A stretch of 40,949 nucleotides of DNA from a bacterium (GCA_027309555.1 DAIDCO010000013.1:1-40949); one strand, 5' to 3'. Positions 32,637 through 40,554 are shown, counted from the first letter of the stretch. Notes: generated from the sequence alone by a model not told the origin. Program-made: numbers and translations.

Positions 32637-33263
32637 ATGGTGCGCGGCGTGATGCTCATGAGTGGCGGGATCGACTCGCCGGTCGCGCTCAACCTCGTGC
32701 TACGCCAGGGCCACGAGATGGTCGCGGTCCACATGGACAACCGCCCGTTCACGGACGATACCCCGCTCGAGAAGGTCGTGGACCACCTCGCGCTCCTGCG
32801 GGCCCGGTACTCGCAGCCGATCCCGCTCTACCTCGTCCCCCACGGGTCGACCCAGGTGACCCTGATGCGGAACACCGACCGCCACGTCGGGTGCGTACTC
32901 TGCCGCCGATTCATGTGGCGCTCCGCCGAGCGGATCGCGGAACGGGAGAACGCGACGTTCCTCGTGACCGGCGAGGCACTCGGCCAGGTCGCTTCCCAGA
33001 CGCTGTCCAATATGCGCAGTGCGACCTCCTCGGTCCGCTTGCCGATCGTTCGCCCGCTGATCGGGCTCGATAAGCAGGAGATCGAGCAGGCCGCGAAAGC
33101 CCTCGGTACTTACGGGATCTCGACCCGCCCGGGGGTCTGCTGCCAAGCCGTACCGGACAAGCCCGCGACGCGCTCGAACCTCGTCCAGATTCTGCGCGAA
33201 GAAGAGCGGGTCGACGTCGAGTCAATCTTGGACGAATGCGTACGCAAGTCAGTCCTGCTCTAG
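32637..33263 (+). CDS. ThiI-like PP-loop tRNA sulfurtransferase domain protein, no THUMP domain
   Basis: 208 aa: 'VMLMSGGIDSPVALNLVLRQGHEMVAVHMDNRPF', 'GCVLCRRFMWRSAERIAERENATFLVTGEALGQVASQTLSNM', 'RPGVCCQAVPDKPATRS'. Confidence 0.92.
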   Translation: MVRGVMLMSGGIDSPVALNLVLRQGHEMVAVHMDNRPFTDDTPLEKVVDHLALLRARYSQPIPLYLVPHGSTQVTLMRNTDRHVGCVLCRRFMWRSAERIAERENATFLVTGEALGQVASQTLSNMRSATSSVRLPIVRPLIGLDKQEIEQAAKALGTYGISTRPGVCCQAVPDKPATRSNLVQILREEERVDVESILDECVRKSVLL

Positions 33264-33394
33264 TTCCTCGGACGCGGTTGGGCCAAACGCGGGCCCGGCC
33301 GACTCGCGGAATCCTGGCCTTGATCGGCTGAGTAAGCAGGGCCCTCGGCCGTGCATGCCGGGAGCCCCGCTGTTCGGGCTCATCGGCTCTTGGT

Positions 33395-34474
33395 CTAGTG
33401 GGCCGTAACTGACAGACGTTGTATTTTGCGGACCTTCCGCAGGATCGTCTCAGCGTCCTTGGTCCACACGAACGGTTGGGCTCGCTCGTTGCTGACTTCC
33501 GCATACTCCTCGATCGCACGCTTCAACGAGGCCACATTGCGGAAGCTCCCTCGAAGGAGCGCCTTTCGGGTGAGCTTCGAGAACCACCCCTCCACCGCGT
33601 TCAGCCAGGACGATCCGGTCGGTACCTGATGGAGTTGGAACCGCGCGTGCCGGCGGAGCCATCGCTCGACCTCCTCGGTCAGATGGGAGCTCGCGTTGTC
33701 CATGATCACATGCACGGCGAGATCGCGGGGGGTGAGGTCATCGAGCCGCTGGAGGAAGGAGAGGAACTCCTGGTGCCGATGCCGATGGTGGAATTCGGTC
33801 ACTACCGTCCCATCGAGGATGTTGAGCGCCGCGAACAGGTCGATCGTCCCGTGGCGTGCGTAGTCGTGGGGACGACCCTCCGGGAAGTTGGGACCTAGGG
33901 GTAACACCGCTTGAGTGCGCTCCAGTGCCTGGACCTGAGGTTTCTCGTCGACCGAGAAGACGATCGCCCTCTCGGGAGGATTGCGGTAAAGCCCCACCAC
34001 GTCGACCAGTTTCTCCTCGAAGCGAGGGTCGGTGCTGAGCTTGAATGACTGCACGCGGTGGGGTTGGAGATGGTGGTCCACCCAGACCCGGTGGACGGTC
34101 ATGTGGCTCACGCCGAGCTCTGCGGCGAGCGTGCGGGTTGACCAGTGGGTCTCTCCCCGCGGCTTCGAGTGGAGGGTGCGGTCCACGATGCGCTGGACGA
34201 TCTCGGGCGAGAGTTCGGGTCGTCGACCCGGTCGAGGAGCATCCCGTCGGATTCCGGGAATACGGAGGAGGGCGAAGCGAGAGCGCCACCGTCCCACCGT
34301 GATAGGGTTGGTGCGCAGGTCCTCGGTAATCTGCCGGTTGGACTGACCGTCGGCGGCGCGCAGGACGATCTGGGAGCGGAGGACCAGGCGTTGAGGGACC
34401 GATCGGCCGCGAGACCAGTGCTCGAGTTCTCGGCGTTCTTCGGGGGTCAGGGTGATCGACGGCGCCCGACGCAT
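33395..34474 (-). CDS. IS630 family transposase
   Basis: 359 aa: HTH 'ERRELEHWSRGRSVPQRLVLRSQIVLRAADGQSNRQITEDL', DDE context 'IVFSVDEKPQVQALERTQ', 'LAVHVIMDNASSHLTEEV', 'TGSSWLNAVEGWFSKLTRKALLRGSFRN'. Confidence 0.97.
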   Translation of the reverse strand: MRRAPSITLTPEERRELEHWSRGRSVPQRLVLRSQIVLRAADGQSNRQITEDLRTNPITVGRWRSRFALLRIPGIRRDAPRPGRRPELSPEIVQRIVDRTLHSKPRGETHWSTRTLAAELGVSHMTVHRVWVDHHLQPHRVQSFKLSTDPRFEEKLVDVVGLYRNPPERAIVFSVDEKPQVQALERTQAVLPLGPNFPEGRPHDYARHGTIDLFAALNILDGTVVTEFHHRHRHQEFLSFLQRLDDLTPRDLAVHVIMDNASSHLTEEVERWLRRHARFQLHQVPTGSSWLNAVEGWFSKLTRKALLRGSFRNVASLKRAIEEYAEVSNERAQPFVWTKDAETILRKVRKIQRLSVTAH

Positions 34475-34530
34475 GAAGGGCGTAACGCAAGCGGGTACAA
34501 TAATGTACTCATTTCAGTTACGGCCCACTA
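33396..34530 (-). mobile_element. Complete IS630-family insertion sequence
   Basis: Perfect inverted repeats CTAGTGGGCCGTAACTGA (33395-33412) / TCAGTTACGGCCCACTAG (34514-34531), flanking TA duplication, one full-length transposase. Confidence 0.93.
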
Positions 34531-34578
34531 GCCTTGCCGGGTCGTGCGCTCGGGCATCCTCCCCGCGCATCACCTGGC

Positions 34579-34866
34579 TCAGAGGGCAGAACCGCACTTG
34601 GAACAGCGAGTCGCCCCGAGCATATTGGTCGCACCGCAACTCTTGCAAGTGGACGGGGTCGGAGTCGCCGATTGGCTGAACACGGGAGCCGACGGCGCCC
34701 GGGTGCGCTCCTTGGTGTAAGACAACACGCCCCAAGCGATAAGCAGTAGTGCCACTAGGAGGAATGGCAGTCCTAGCACGAGTCCGATTCCAAATGGTAT
34801 CGCGAAGAGTCCCAACGCGAAGATCAGCAGTATGCCGCCGCCCACGATGCGTCGTATTCCACCCAT
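34579..34866 (-). CDS. Small two-TM protein with C-terminal zinc ribbon
   Basis: 95 aa: hydrophobic N-terminal half and 'CKSCGATNMLGATRCSKCGSAL'. Confidence 0.82.
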   Translation of the reverse strand: MGGIRRIVGGGILLIFALGLFAIPFGIGLVLGLPFLLVALLLIAWGVLSYTKERTRAPSAPVFSQSATPTPSTCKSCGATNMLGATRCSKCGSAL

Positions 34867-34880
34867 GTTTCTTTTCTCCT

Positions 34881-36023
34881 TCAGGATAGAGGCTCCTTAC
34901 AGTAGGGACAAAATTTCGGAGTTTTAGGTAAGGCCAAATCCTTTCCACAGTACGGACACGCAGCATAACGGCCGGGAGCGGCTGAGGCGGACGGAGCACT
35001 CGACGAAGCCGCTCCTCGAGGCGGAGGGTCGGGAGCCGAGGTCGGGGCGTTCGGTCCTGCCGTCGGCTTGAGCGGAGTACCGCACTTTGGGCAGAACGCC
35101 GAATCGGTGGATGCATGCGCCCCGCACTTCGCGCACTGGACGACCACCTGTGGACCGGAGGCCGAAGGGGTCAGCACGGATTGCATTGTCCCCGCCATCG
35201 CACCGAGGGGCAGAACCGAGATCATCTGTCCTCCCATCGTCCCGCCGCCCTGTGGATTCTGGGCGAACGTCTCCATGATCCGGATCTGCTCCGCCTTCAG
35301 GAAGGCATCCGAGCTTTTTCCCGTGAATCCCAGCACACGGTTGAGCTGGGCCTTTGAGTCATCGTCCGTGTCCACTGACTCAATCTTCAGGTCAAGCAAC
35401 TCGAGTCCCCGTTGAGTGAACGCCTCAGCCGTGTTCACTTTGGCCTGAGTGGACACCCCTTCGAGCTTGCCGTAGACCTCGGTGAAGAAGTACTTCGCGA
35501 AGTTCTGGGTCAGCCGTTCGACGAGGAACATCCGGATATACGAGTTCACGGAGTCGGAAGTGAAGCTGGATAGACCACCCACGAGCTGCTGGAGAAAGAC
35601 GGGAGGATCCGCCACCCGGAATTGATAACCGCCGTTAGCCATCATCGGAATGAAGATGGTATCAAACTGGGGATCGGCCCGAACGTTCAACCGGAGCCCC
35701 CAACGGCTGGGGAACATCTTTTGCTGCACGAAGAAGAGCGTCGCTTTGAACGGGGTATCCCGCTGACCCGCGGCGTCCCGGAAGCCGCCGAACAGATTGT
35801 ATATCGAAGTGAGCACCCTCAGGTTCTGGGTCGTGAGGACATGGCGGCCCGGACCGAAGACGTCCATCAACTTGCCGTCCCGCATGAACGCGGCGGCTTC
35901 GTACTCGTGAACGATTAGTTGGCTCCCCAGGGCGAAGTTCTCGTTGGGCCAGCGAAAGACAATGTCGTCTGCCCCTGGGGTCTGCCACTCGATGACTTGC
36001 TTTTGCATAGGTCCGCTGCTCAT
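34881..36023 (-). CDS. SPFH-domain YdjI-like ('virion core protein') with two C-terminal zinc ribbons
   Basis: 380 aa: 'VIEWQTPGADDIVFRWPNENFALGSQLIVHEYEAAAFMRDGKLMDVFGPGRHVLTTQNLRVL...', then 'CAKCGAHASTDSAFCPKCGTPL' and 'CPYCGKDLALPKTPKFCPYCKEPL'. Confidence 0.9.
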   Translation of the reverse strand: MSSGPMQKQVIEWQTPGADDIVFRWPNENFALGSQLIVHEYEAAAFMRDGKLMDVFGPGRHVLTTQNLRVLTSIYNLFGGFRDAAGQRDTPFKATLFFVQQKMFPSRWGLRLNVRADPQFDTIFIPMMANGGYQFRVADPPVFLQQLVGGLSSFTSDSVNSYIRMFLVERLTQNFAKYFFTEVYGKLEGVSTQAKVNTAEAFTQRGLELLDLKIESVDTDDDSKAQLNRVLGFTGKSSDAFLKAEQIRIMETFAQNPQGGGTMGGQMISVLPLGAMAGTMQSVLTPSASGPQVVVQCAKCGAHASTDSAFCPKCGTPLKPTAGPNAPTSAPDPPPRGAASSSAPSASAAPGRYAACPYCGKDLALPKTPKFCPYCKEPLS

Positions 36024-36565
36024 GGTCTACCCTCTGACTTGCCGAGTTCTTCGATCCCGATCATCACCTGTTTGCGTGCGATGAACGTTCGGTCGAGCGC
36101 CTCCAGGTCGGACCGGACGGTCTCGAGAAGCTTGGCGGAGGTCTCCGCGCGGAAGGCTCCGATGTCGGATCCGATCCTCCGGGCGCCGTCGAGCAGCGAA
36201 TCATCGAACTCGATCGCTCGGTCGAGCTGTGCGTCCAGGATCTTCGCCCCATCCCACCGGCCCGAGTACCCTCGAGATGCATGAGCGATCGCTTGCTGCA
36301 GTCTGTCCAAGATACGGACGGCGGAGTCGACCTCTGATGCCAGCACGTCGTTGCCACCGTTTACAAGGGACTTGTACGCGTCCTTGAGCGCTCCGAGGGC
36401 TTTGCGGAGCTCTAGTGCGACTGCATCACGGACCAATTGATCCGTGTCGCGGATGAGGTCGCGGCCCCGGTACCCCCGATATCCGGGTATCATCAGGAGA
36501 ACCCTCTCCCAGGCACTTCGACTCTGTTTCACTCGGTCGTAGGCGTGTCCGCCGCTACTAGCCAT
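36020..36565 (-). CDS. Helical/coiled-coil protein of the SPFH cassette
   Basis: 181 aa from MASSGGHAYDRVKQS (ATG 36565), long predicted helices; 4-bp overlap with the SPFH gene. Confidence 0.78.
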   Translation of the reverse strand: MASSGGHAYDRVKQSRSAWERVLLMIPGYRGYRGRDLIRDTDQLVRDAVALELRKALGALKDAYKSLVNGGNDVLASEVDSAVRILDRLQQAIAHASRGYSGRWDGAKILDAQLDRAIEFDDSLLDGARRIGSDIGAFRAETSAKLLETVRSDLEALDRTFIARKQVMIGIEELGKSEGRP

Positions 36566-36947
36566 GGTTTCTTGCCCTCCCGCTCTGAGCCCCAAAAAAC
36601 ACGACGATGACGGTCACGGCAATCCACACGTAAAGGAGGTAGAACCCGAGACCAGAGACATAGGTGGCCACTAGGAGCAACGCCCCAGTGACGAGCAGAA
36701 TAGTTCCCCAGCCTGCAGTAAAGACCGAGGAAGGCGCACCGAAGAACGGCTGTGCGCGCCCCGATGCCGGCTCCGTTGGGGATAGAGGTCGCTGGGAAGC
36801 CGTGGCAAGGAGGTAAACTCCCGCCGCCCCGATGAACATGGGCACCATCGCATACCAGTGAGAAGGGTCGAGTATTGCAATGACGAAACCGAACGCAGCG
36901 ATGACAATTGCCGCGATGAGTCCCGGGGACCAGAGAGAATCGGTCAT
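36558..36947 (-). CDS. Four-TM membrane protein of the SPFH cassette
   Basis: 129 aa with four hydrophobic segments; 8-bp overlap with 36020..36565. Confidence 0.8.
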   Translation of the reverse strand: MTDSLWSPGLIAAIVIAAFGFVIAILDPSHWYAMVPMFIGAAGVYLLATASQRPLSPTEPASGRAQPFFGAPSSVFTAGWGTILLVTGALLLVATYVSGLGFYLLYVWIAVTVIVVFFGAQSGRARNHG

Positions 36948-36951
36948 GGTA

Positions 36952-38481
36952 TTACACGCTCAACCCCGCGAGCACTGTGGCGTTCCCAGTCTCTCGCGGC
37001 GCCATTGCTCCCAGCTGCGGAAACGAGAATCGCTGTCCGTCGTACTGGGTGGGGACATAGGCGAGCTCGACGACCCGCGGGGCGGAGAGCCGAAGTTTGT
37101 CTCGAACCTTGGCATCACTGTTGATAGTTGTGTTGAGGTAGCTTGTTGCCATCTCCGCCGCGTCGTTTTCGCTCGACAGGGCAGGGATGGCCGGCATCGA
37201 GAGATGTGAGTTCGTGGCCTGGGCCAGCAGCGTCGAGAGTCCCCCCCCACTGATGGAAGTCTCCTTGCCCGTTAGCCCATCGAGGACTCCACCCTTAGCC
37301 CGCGCCCGGAAGACATCGCTCACAGCCCCCGGCGAATTCCAAGCACCCCCGGCAAAGGCGTCGGCCGCGACAAGGAGAAGCTCGGAAACCTCTTTGCCTT
37401 TCTTAGTCCAGAGAGCTCCGGTCGAGAAGCTGTACTTGAGGTCGATTACCCAGAACGGGTACAGGAGGTTCCCGCTACCGGGGAGCACCCGCATGGTGGC
37501 CATGGCTTTGCGAGCGGCAATCGTAGTCTGGAGCCGAGAGATGATCCCCTGCACCCGGGTAGGGTTCGAGTAAACTTGAGGGAACGATTGAAGGACTCCG
37601 ACGATTGCCTGTACCTGAGTCACCAGCTTGGCATCTACCATCGAATCGCCCGTACTGGCTTGGGTCAGCGACATGATCGAGTCAGCGATGAGACGTTCAT
37701 CTCGTATGGCCTGGCTCATCACGGTCGAGGTCATGCTGGATGCCGCCAACCCACCCGCTGTCTCATAGAGCGCCAAGGCCCTGGAAGAATTCCTGTGCGA
37801 TTCGGGCAGCTTGCCGTTGACGAAAGCGTCCGACGCGGTGGCACTGAGCGCGTTCGCCTGAAGGCGTTCTACCAGACCAGGGTACATCTCGTTCGCAGCT
37901 TCCATCGCCTTCGCGGCGGACGAGAAGTTATCCGCCATGAGGGCAAAGCGGTCACCCTTCGGCTCGTGGAGGAGCTTGGCGTTGTTCAGGAGGTAGGCAT
38001 ACGACACAGCTACTGCGTTTGCATCGTCGACCGCCTTCTTGGCTTCTGGATTCACGGCCAGCGGATAGACCGATTGCACCTTGGCTTGAAAAGAGAAGAC
38101 CTCCTTCGGGTCGTTCGAAGGATGAATCTGATCGTTCAGAATATACGGAAAAGTTGTGAGGTTTTGGGAAAGGAGCGACGCCATGTTGAAGCGGTACTCC
38201 GTGAATTCAGTGTCGAGCCGCGGCTTGACATTATTGACGAAGACCCCGTATCGGGCCACGGGGTCGACGTTCGCACTGTGGGAGAGGTCCATCCCGACGG
38301 GTACGGCCTTCCGGAGCCATTCTGAAACGCTTAGCTTGAGTTCCTCGAGATACTGTCGGGCGTCAAGCAGCTTCTGGGCCGTTCCGCACGAGCGGCACAC
38401 GACTGTCTCGACTCCGGCCGCGGGCGCTTCTAAGGGAGCAGAGCAGTAGCGGCACCGAAGTGACTGGAGCTCCTGAGTCAA
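36952..38481 (-). CDS. N-terminal zinc-ribbon protein of unknown function in the SPFH cassette
   Basis: 509 aa: 'CRYCSAPLEAPAAGVETVVCRSCGTAQ', helical central region, later 'YPFWVIDLKYSFSTGALWTKKGKEVSE'. Confidence 0.85.
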   Translation of the reverse strand: MTQELQSLRCRYCSAPLEAPAAGVETVVCRSCGTAQKLLDARQYLEELKLSVSEWLRKAVPVGMDLSHSANVDPVARYGVFVNNVKPRLDTEFTEYRFNMASLLSQNLTTFPYILNDQIHPSNDPKEVFSFQAKVQSVYPLAVNPEAKKAVDDANAVAVSYAYLLNNAKLLHEPKGDRFALMADNFSSAAKAMEAANEMYPGLVERLQANALSATASDAFVNGKLPESHRNSSRALALYETAGGLAASSMTSTVMSQAIRDERLIADSIMSLTQASTGDSMVDAKLVTQVQAIVGVLQSFPQVYSNPTRVQGIISRLQTTIAARKAMATMRVLPGSGNLLYPFWVIDLKYSFSTGALWTKKGKEVSELLLVAADAFAGGAWNSPGAVSDVFRARAKGGVLDGLTGKETSISGGGLSTLLAQATNSHLSMPAIPALSSENDAAEMATSYLNTTINSDAKVRDKLRLSAPRVVELAYVPTQYDGQRFSFPQLGAMAPRETGNATVLAGLSV

Positions 38482-38483
38482 TT

Positions 38484-39401
38484 TTACCTCCGCATGTTCT
38501 GAATCTGTTTCCGGAGAACCTCGATCTCCGCTTCGAGCTTGGTGTAAACCTCTTGGGCCCGTTTCTGAGCCCAGCTGTCCGAAAGCGTGTTCATGGTCGA
38601 GTTACAGCCCCGGCACGAAAAGATCTGGTTCGTCCCGTTGTCAAAGGAAGGAAGCACCGCCGCGGACTCAGTCTTGGTGAGGGAGAGCGTGAGTTCCGAC
38701 GGTAGCTGGAAAAAGCTCACACCTTGTCCCGTCACCTCACGACCGCAGAACCAGCACTTGGCCGACTTCTGGTATTGCTGCGCCCGGCTCCGCGCGTCCG
38801 CGGAAGCCTGCTTGACTCCGGCCTGCTCCCAGAAGAGACTGGCTTGTTGGTAGTGCTCCCCTGCCTTCTTCGGGTCGGTGAACACGGTCGATTCGCCCAT
38901 CATCTCCTCGGAGAGGGCGAAGAGCGTAAACGCGCGAGAGGCACCGGTGCCCGTCTCCTTCTGGAACATCTCCTTGGTGAGAATCACGTTGGTCCGGATG
39001 ACCGACTGGTATCGCAATCCCACTTCGCGAAGCCTCTGGGCACGATTCGTCTGTTCGATGACACTTTGACTCGGCATCATCACCGCGGCCAAGTCCTCGC
39101 CGAGGATGGCGACCTCGTTAGAGAGTGACGAGGCCGAAACATCCCGCAGTCCAATCTTGAGAGTGGCGCCCCCTAGAGTCTGCAACGACTGTGCAGCGCG
39201 CCCGTAAATCGCGGGGTCGCCTCCCGCGCGCGCTAAAGCCAAAAAGGCCGCGTACGCCATCGCGAGCTGGGCATTTGTCGAATCCCCCTCGCGGGTCAGC
39301 TTGGCGGCGGCGTCCGAATACCTCTCTTCGGCTTTCGCGAAGTTACCCTGTTTCACCAGGTCGTTCGCTTGCTCTAGAAGCTTGGAACTGCTACGGAACA
39401 T
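38484..39401 (-). CDS. TPR-like helical repeat protein with paired Cys motifs
   Basis: 305 aa: 'LLEQANDLVKQGNFAKAEERYSDAAAKL', 'CWFCGREV' and 'CRGCNSTM', C-terminal coiled coil. Confidence 0.85.
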   Translation of the reverse strand: MFRSSSKLLEQANDLVKQGNFAKAEERYSDAAAKLTREGDSTNAQLAMAYAAFLALARAGGDPAIYGRAAQSLQTLGGATLKIGLRDVSASSLSNEVAILGEDLAAVMMPSQSVIEQTNRAQRLREVGLRYQSVIRTNVILTKEMFQKETGTGASRAFTLFALSEEMMGESTVFTDPKKAGEHYQQASLFWEQAGVKQASADARSRAQQYQKSAKCWFCGREVTGQGVSFFQLPSELTLSLTKTESAAVLPSFDNGTNQIFSCRGCNSTMNTLSDSWAQKRAQEVYTKLEAEIEVLRKQIQNMRR

Positions 39402-40554
39402 GAACTACTCCCGTGGACGTGTCGACTACTAGTCTCGCAGGAATCCGCCTTCCGAACGGTCGAAAACAGTACTGGGAAAGCGAATAAGCCGAGAGAATCG
39501 GTCCGAATCCCCCCATCCCAGTGACCTAGCTTCGGGACGCTGTAGAAGAGATAAATGTAGCGAAGCCCGGTATCTTTCCGACCGACGGCATGTAGGAACG
39601 AAACCCGCAGGTCACTGCGCTCCCAGCCGAGGACCCGAGGTTGGTTGGTTTCTGGGAGGGGTCGTGCGCAACATCTGGTGCTCTCTTCAAACAGTTCCTG
39701 GGGCCCGGCTCTTCCCGATGACCCGAGTACGATTTCGCCTGGAAGAGTGCCGGCGTCCGACAACCTAACAACGCCACCGTCGGCAGGCGAGACTCCGGGA
39801 CCGATGTCCGGTCTGCCGACAGGCACTCGGCCTTTCATGCCCCACTCCCCCTCAAGACCATCCACTGCAATGTGCCCACCGCCGAACCTGGAGACCGGCT
39901 TGCGCTCCTCCCACTCGGTCATCGAGGCCGTACGGGCCATGGGTAGCAAGACTCCCTGGTGATTGTCCGATGCCGTGGTCATCCTTTCCCAACTCGGGGA
40001 AGAACTGCTCGGAATGCGCCCCTGGTCCCTGGTTGCATCTCTCTCTCTCGGGGTATGCCGGAACTGCGGGGAGACCGGGACGCCCAGGGTGTTGGCCGCG
40101 AGTGCCGCACTCATGCACGTCGATCTCGAGTGACTCGCCGCCTCGATGTGGAGATGTAGGGGCCCCCGCCCTGAGGGGCCTACGCCGTTCGTTCCGTTCG
40201 GCCCTCGGCGCGGTCTTCCACGCGTTAGTCATGAACTGATGGTGTCGGACAGAGCGCACCGGCATCGATGTCCCCAGTCTAAGTTTGCCACGCTCCTAAA
40301 GGGCCAGACAAGCATGGCTACCCTCGAGCTTCTCCAGTAGGTCGACGGCCGAGTTCTTCGTACTCCGGGGGACTGAATCCCCTCGAGGAGCGTCGCCTTC
40401 GGCTAGACTCCGGCCAGAAGTCGCTCCGTCTCTGGACCGGTGGGGTGAGTATTCCCGTAAGGTTGTCCCCCGCCAGGCCCCTCGCCTTAAGGGGTTCGAG
40501 GCCACCGATGCGAACCGAGATGACCCCCGTCGGCTTGGTTGGAACCGTGGGCCC

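Follow-up and report, generated by a model that had tools for sequence, protein, structure and literature searches.

Proteins that join an SPFH domain to zinc ribbons are already known, as are their links to PspA and to ESCRT (PMC8581546, PMC11237479, PMC10936438). In Bacillus, soluble YdjI depends on two membrane proteins, YdjG and YdjH, for reaching the membrane, and PspA in turn is recruited only if YdjI is present (PMC8581546). YdjG consists of two ribbons, an NTF2-like domain and a transmembrane (TM) segment, YdjH has a TPM domain, and Ravi et al. propose chaperone-like roles for the band-7 and TPM partners of PspA (PMC11237479). In Methanobacteriales, the Meth_adaptin ESCRT loci include an SPFH protein with a coiled coil and a zinc ribbon (Makarova et al. 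2024; PMC10936438). Here we describe a block of five to six archaeal genes whose products probably assemble into a protein scaffold at the cell membrane, a putative function read from gene order and domain content. An earlier note on this DNA had suggested that the partners of its SPFH protein had not been grouped before, and in the open-licence literature we indeed found no description of their grouping with genes A, B and C or of the families of A and B, and no paper on Methanomassiliicoccales together with SPFH.

The window, the whole 40,949-nucleotide stretch of DNA that was analysed, contains six ORFs on the minus strand that span positions 34579-39401 and are transcribed in the order A-B-C-D-E-F. 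These genes and the mobile element next to them are as follows.

38484..39401, minus strand: gene A, TPR and zinc ribbon, 305 aa, first gene of the predicted operon (ORF, profile and neighbourhood)
36952..38481, minus strand: gene B, zinc ribbon and large domain, 509 aa (ORF, alignment and AlphaFold2 model)
36558..36947, minus strand: gene C, 4-TM protein, 129 aa (hydropathy, G021 copy and profile match)
36020..36595, minus strand: gene D, two-hairpin four-helix or coiled-coil protein, 191 aa from a TTG start and 181 aa from an internal ATG
34881..36023, minus strand: gene E, SPFH domain and double zinc ribbon, 380 aa (Pfam)
34579..34866, minus strand: gene F, 2-TM protein with C-terminal zinc ribbon, 95 aa, accessory (Pfam, hydropathy and G021 copy)
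33395..34531, no strand assigned: IS630 element with transposase at 33395-34474 (NF033545, terminal inverted repeats), a neighbour outside the operon

Adjacent ORFs are separated by 2 nt (A/B), 4 nt (B/C) and 14 nt (E/F) or overlap, by 4 bp in D/E and, counted with the 181-aa start of D, by 8 bp in C/D; the ORF coordinates thus agree with the positions and spacings that the earlier note gave for six minus-strand genes. Its count of Cys pairs in four of the six products is also right, because C and D have none. The ribbons lie in A, B, E and F, and those of A, B and E do not reflect chance, since their cysteines are invariant in alignments. The flanks are likewise as it had described them, with an IS630 element on the 3′ side and about 1.1 kb without a convincing gene on the 5′ side. 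The IS630 transposase matches its NCBIfam family with E 8.8e-71, and perfect 18-bp inverted repeats (CTAGTGGGCCGTAACTGA) form the ends of the element at 33395-33412 and 34514-34531; the element stops 47 bp beyond the F stop codon and leaves F uninterrupted. The stretch upstream of A (39402-40550) may hold a promoter site. The window's copy of the cassette may have been acquired by transfer: G+C content is about 60% across its region (33001-40000), whereas most of the contig has about 69%, although the first 5 kb are also lower, near 62-64%. No RNA families or tRNAs were found within the window.

The 380-aa product E, proposed at the outset to be an SPFH protein, matches Pfam Band_7_1 (PF13421; E 1.1e-28, 100.7 bits against a cut-off of 24), with the SPFH domain at residues 23-228, and also PF01145 (E 5e-10). 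Its C-terminal double zinc ribbon at residues 297-375 (DZR; E 3.7e-9, 37 against a cut-off of 27.3) has eight cysteines that are invariant in our alignment (n=11), and hydropathy gives no TM segment. E is thus a YdjI-like Band_7_1 protein, with the SPFH domain, the C-terminal ribbon and zero TM segments of that type.

E has a constant neighbour in D, which lies directly upstream on the same strand in 29 of 29 loci with room for it that came from E-only searches. The AlphaFold2 model of D (pLDDT 83.6) consists of two helical hairpins, or four helices. That D is PspA or ESCRT-III found no support: hhalign of its profile against E. coli PspA gave a probability of 0.3%, the shape of the model did not speak for it, and a fold search in the PDB gave no match under E 0.08. 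D does match the NF047596 model (LIMLP_15305, Leptospira) over about 130 residues, as do all ten D proteins tested; with E 1e-9 and 38.4 bits, far below the family cut-off of 210, it can be no more than a distant relative and is not a member. The single paper found to name the LIMLP_15305 locus gives no function for it.

The likeness to the YdjI/PspA system that the earlier note had drawn therefore extends to the architecture of E but not to the system as a whole, as PspA, a TPM-domain YdjH and the YdjG architecture are absent. As in the pspA-ydjGHI locus of B. subtilis, the SPFH protein carries Band_7_1 and C-terminal ribbons without a TM segment, and a helical partner gene and genes for TM proteins adjoin the SPFH gene. 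However, D is unrelated to PspA by profile, and A and B have no counterpart in the B. subtilis locus. The PspA-YdjGHI system is further marked by induction under envelope stress and by membrane foci; for the archaeal genes, the membrane-stress role suggested in the earlier note is a putative one. None of the six products matched a TPM domain in Pfam, and PspA_IM30 (PF04012) went undetected in the window's own genome and in 24 other Thermoplasmata genomes, complete ones included, in family searches that, like those for ESCRT components below, can miss very divergent homologues.

The gene order of the cassette is conserved across genomes far beyond chance. First, a second genome of the same genus (G021, locus L061) carries all six genes in the same order, with identities of 60% for A, 57% for B, 44% for C, 59% for D, 71% for E and 55% for F. 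Second, the order A-B-C-D-E is common to these two genomes and to Methanomassiliicoccales, with proteins that are only about 25-40% identical. The co-occurrence expected by the earlier note is therefore found elsewhere, for six genes in G021 and for A-E in Methanomassiliicoccales. Third, a B profile run against 84,980 species genomes gave 64 loci, nearly all in Thermoplasmatota and mostly in Methanomassiliicoccales, of which six were cut by a contig end and 58 were uncut. A lies directly before B in all 60 loci with room for it, at a median gap of 3 bases; D-E follows downstream of B in 46 of the 58 uncut loci, and a 4-TM gene in the position of C was detected in 43. What flanks the cassette varies: the methanogen example has glutamine synthetase III and glutamate synthase nearby, and neither was seen beside the window's cassette.

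Fourth, gene trees point in the same direction. In the E tree, the proteins of the window and G021 cluster with the cassette E proteins of Methanomassiliicoccales (100/99). The window's own genome encodes another D-E dyad (contig C67, locus L063), and the E of this dyad falls apart from that cluster, among the E proteins of the remaining genus members. In the B tree, which is midpoint-rooted and has some long branches, the window and G021 take an intermediate position, with the methanogens on one side and A-B pairs from other Thermoplasmata on the other. Together, these placements indicate that the cassette travels or is inherited as a unit.

By gene content, the core of the cassette is modular, with D-E across Thermoplasmata and A-B almost only in Thermoplasmatota. 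Among 400 Thermoplasmata genomes, D turned up in 283 and B in 70; with D beside E in all 29 loci with room, D-E has the look of an old dyad, and A-B that of a second, rarer pair. Many genomes have D-E without A-B. Several have A-B without an adjacent D-E, including one (G218) with A-B, no D and no strong E match, so A-B may function independently of D-E. The solo D-E dyads of Thermoplasmata, of which the second dyad of the window's own genome is an example, likewise have adjacent coiled-coil and SPFH/ribbon genes; unlike the cassette, their E falls in a separate, well-supported clade, their D has an N-terminal ribbon and A-B-C is missing. At that locus (L063:5898-12221), where D has the N-terminal zinc ribbon, E has a ribbon-bearing frame and the gene of a large PKD-domain protein downstream.

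A and B appear to belong to protein families that are so far unnamed. The earlier impression that these products of 305 and 509 aa are unannotated was confirmed by searches of Pfam and NCBIfam, which gave no family for either beyond short ribbon or TPR stretches. A starts with TPR-like helices, with profile matches to TPR structures over about residues 6-70, and continues with a zinc ribbon (C216, C219, C263 and C266, invariant in 20 homologues) and a C-terminal coiled coil. B has a single ribbon at its N terminus (C10, C13, C29 and C32, invariant in the 19 homologues aligned), no TM segment, an all-helical middle (residues 38-324) and a C-terminal alpha/beta domain (about 325-509) with a PFW..YxFxTG motif; ribbon, helical middle and alpha/beta domain are all seen in its AlphaFold2 model (mean pLDDT 85, pTM 0.84). 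Neither a fold search against solved structures in the PDB nor a sequence-profile search of the PDB gave anything significant for B. A 464-aa protein encoded near an SPFH gene on a Butyrivibrio plasmid was rejected as a homologue of B, as only the ribbon aligns, and no plasmid homologues of B or D were found.

Hydropathy gives four TM segments for C and two for F. C matches the 4-TM protein in the same slot of Methanomassiliicoccales by profile (probability 78%, E 1.8e-5) and, judged by its topology and position, is likely a membrane anchor. F has a weak zinc-ribbon match in Pfam and adjoins the cassette only in the window's own genome and G021, both of the same genus; it is an accessory gene.

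The conserved order, the close spacing, the SPFH and ribbon domains and the inheritance as a unit support reading the block as a scaffold unit, and we propose, with confidence evenly divided for and against, that a single operon builds a membrane-associated scaffold for membrane maintenance. E, without a membrane segment of its own, would oligomerise on the cytosolic face of the membrane, and C, joined by F in this genus, would hold it there; this division of labour is suggested because E has no TM segment, C has four and F has two, and follows the same logic as for YdjI. The four-helix D would bind E and fill the slot held by PspA next to YdjI in Bacillus; we infer this functional replacement from the position of D and the absence of PspA. 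A and B, as a TPR/zinc-ribbon pair, would deliver client proteins or a signal to the scaffold. The whole would most likely serve to keep the membrane or its protein complexes intact, in archaea in which neither PspA nor an MIT-domain Vps4 was detected.

A broader version of this scaffold proposal, which we put forward tentatively and with rather more doubt than belief, is that the cassette may represent an archaeal machine for membrane maintenance that has not been described before: a modular system built on an SPFH protein, where the PspA role beside a YdjI-like scaffold has passed to a four-helix protein without relation to PspA, the new families A and B act as an adaptor pair, and the whole is inherited as a single operon in Methanomassiliicoccales and a few other Thermoplasmata. 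The operon is a concrete candidate for membrane protection or organisation in archaea without PspA or a recognisable ESCRT, and the cassette is present in most sampled genomes of Methanomassiliicoccales, which are host-associated and other methanogens. It also gives two unnamed protein families a genomic context, and suggests that an SPFH scaffold may keep its role while its helical partner is swapped.

SPFH proteins of the HflK/C type form cages with proteases. The cassette could similarly encode a quality-control or chaperone scaffold for membrane-protein assembly, HflK/C- or prohibitin-like, with E as the cage and A and B as TPR co-chaperones; TPR and zinc-ribbon domains are typical of co-chaperones, and chaperone-like roles have been put forward for PspA's band-7/TPM partners (PMC11237479). 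However, Pfam detects no protease or ATPase domain in the six products, and HflK/C-type SPFH proteins carry their own TM anchors, which E does not; we consider a scaffold of this kind unlikely.

It is improbable, in our judgement, that the cassette represents an archaeal ESCRT-like sorting machinery, as a remnant or in variant form, with D or B doing the membrane remodelling. The Meth_adaptin loci (PMC10936438) do resemble it in that an SPFH protein bearing a coiled coil and a zinc ribbon has helical and ribbon proteins as neighbours, but their Vps4, ESCRT-III, adaptin appendage and GOLD domain were not found in the present cassette, which has no Vps4, Snf7 or PspA gene. At the genome level, family searches left the MIT domain (PF04212, Vps4) undetected in 18 genomes with a positive Sulfolobus control, and gave no Snf7 match (PF03357) in the window's own genome, with a model that is weak even in the Sulfolobus control; no MIT, Snf7 or PspA domain was found in the genomes tested. 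The fold search with B returned several Bro1 domains, which are ESCRT adaptors, but at E 1.3 and above, with probability up to 0.69 and TM-score <=0.37. These matches are far from significant, other helical solenoids match B as well, and the search does not assign the Bro1 fold to B. D, for its part, is a short two-hairpin bundle without PspA profile similarity.

Two observations would fit a role in conflict or defence, in a module linked to DO-GTPase/GAP1-N2 systems: the two co-directional genes that follow F in G021 (L061:281-4676) encode DO-GTPase2 and GAP1-N2, and DO-GTPase2 is present in 37 of 48 genomes of family f8 with B versus 6 of 16 without B. The association nevertheless tracks genus: genomes of g53 that have no B keep the GTPase, and genomes of g8 and g71 that have B lack it. 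Moreover, DO-GTPase2 (PF19993) was not found in the window's own genome, and of the other family members with A-B that were tested only G021 matches. In the methanogens examined, the GTPase loci are away from the cassette, the sole annotated one carries HSP70 genes, and PADLOC gave no match worth keeping. As the distribution follows genus and not the cassette, and the genes stand beside the cassette only in G021, we rejected the link, and a defence role is very unlikely. The G021 DO-GTPase2 has weak beta-propeller matches, and the window has its IS630 element at that place.

Finally, that the six genes are unrelated neighbours that face the same way by chance is highly implausible and, for A-E, refuted by the conserved order: A-B and D-E do also occur apart, but the order is kept across families at mostly under 40% identity and with gaps of a few bases, and co-inheritance of the cassette type is evident from the E tree.

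Some loci depart from the common arrangement. A divergent variant in family f8 (L080:4085-12739) retains A-B-E; next comes the gene of a 4-TM protein that ends in a helical tail, and upstream lie genes for a ribbon-rich protein, a ribbon/transglutaminase-like protein and ribbon/TM proteins. The shape of its 4-TM protein, four TM segments plus helices, is suggestive of a fusion of C and D, but it has no profile similarity to either and was rejected as such. Besides the standard locus, G307 and G369 each have another B match, which is divergent. An A-B pair on a 5.8-kb contig labelled Thorarchaeota (L081) groups with Thermoplasmata (100/99), so this label is probably a binning error.
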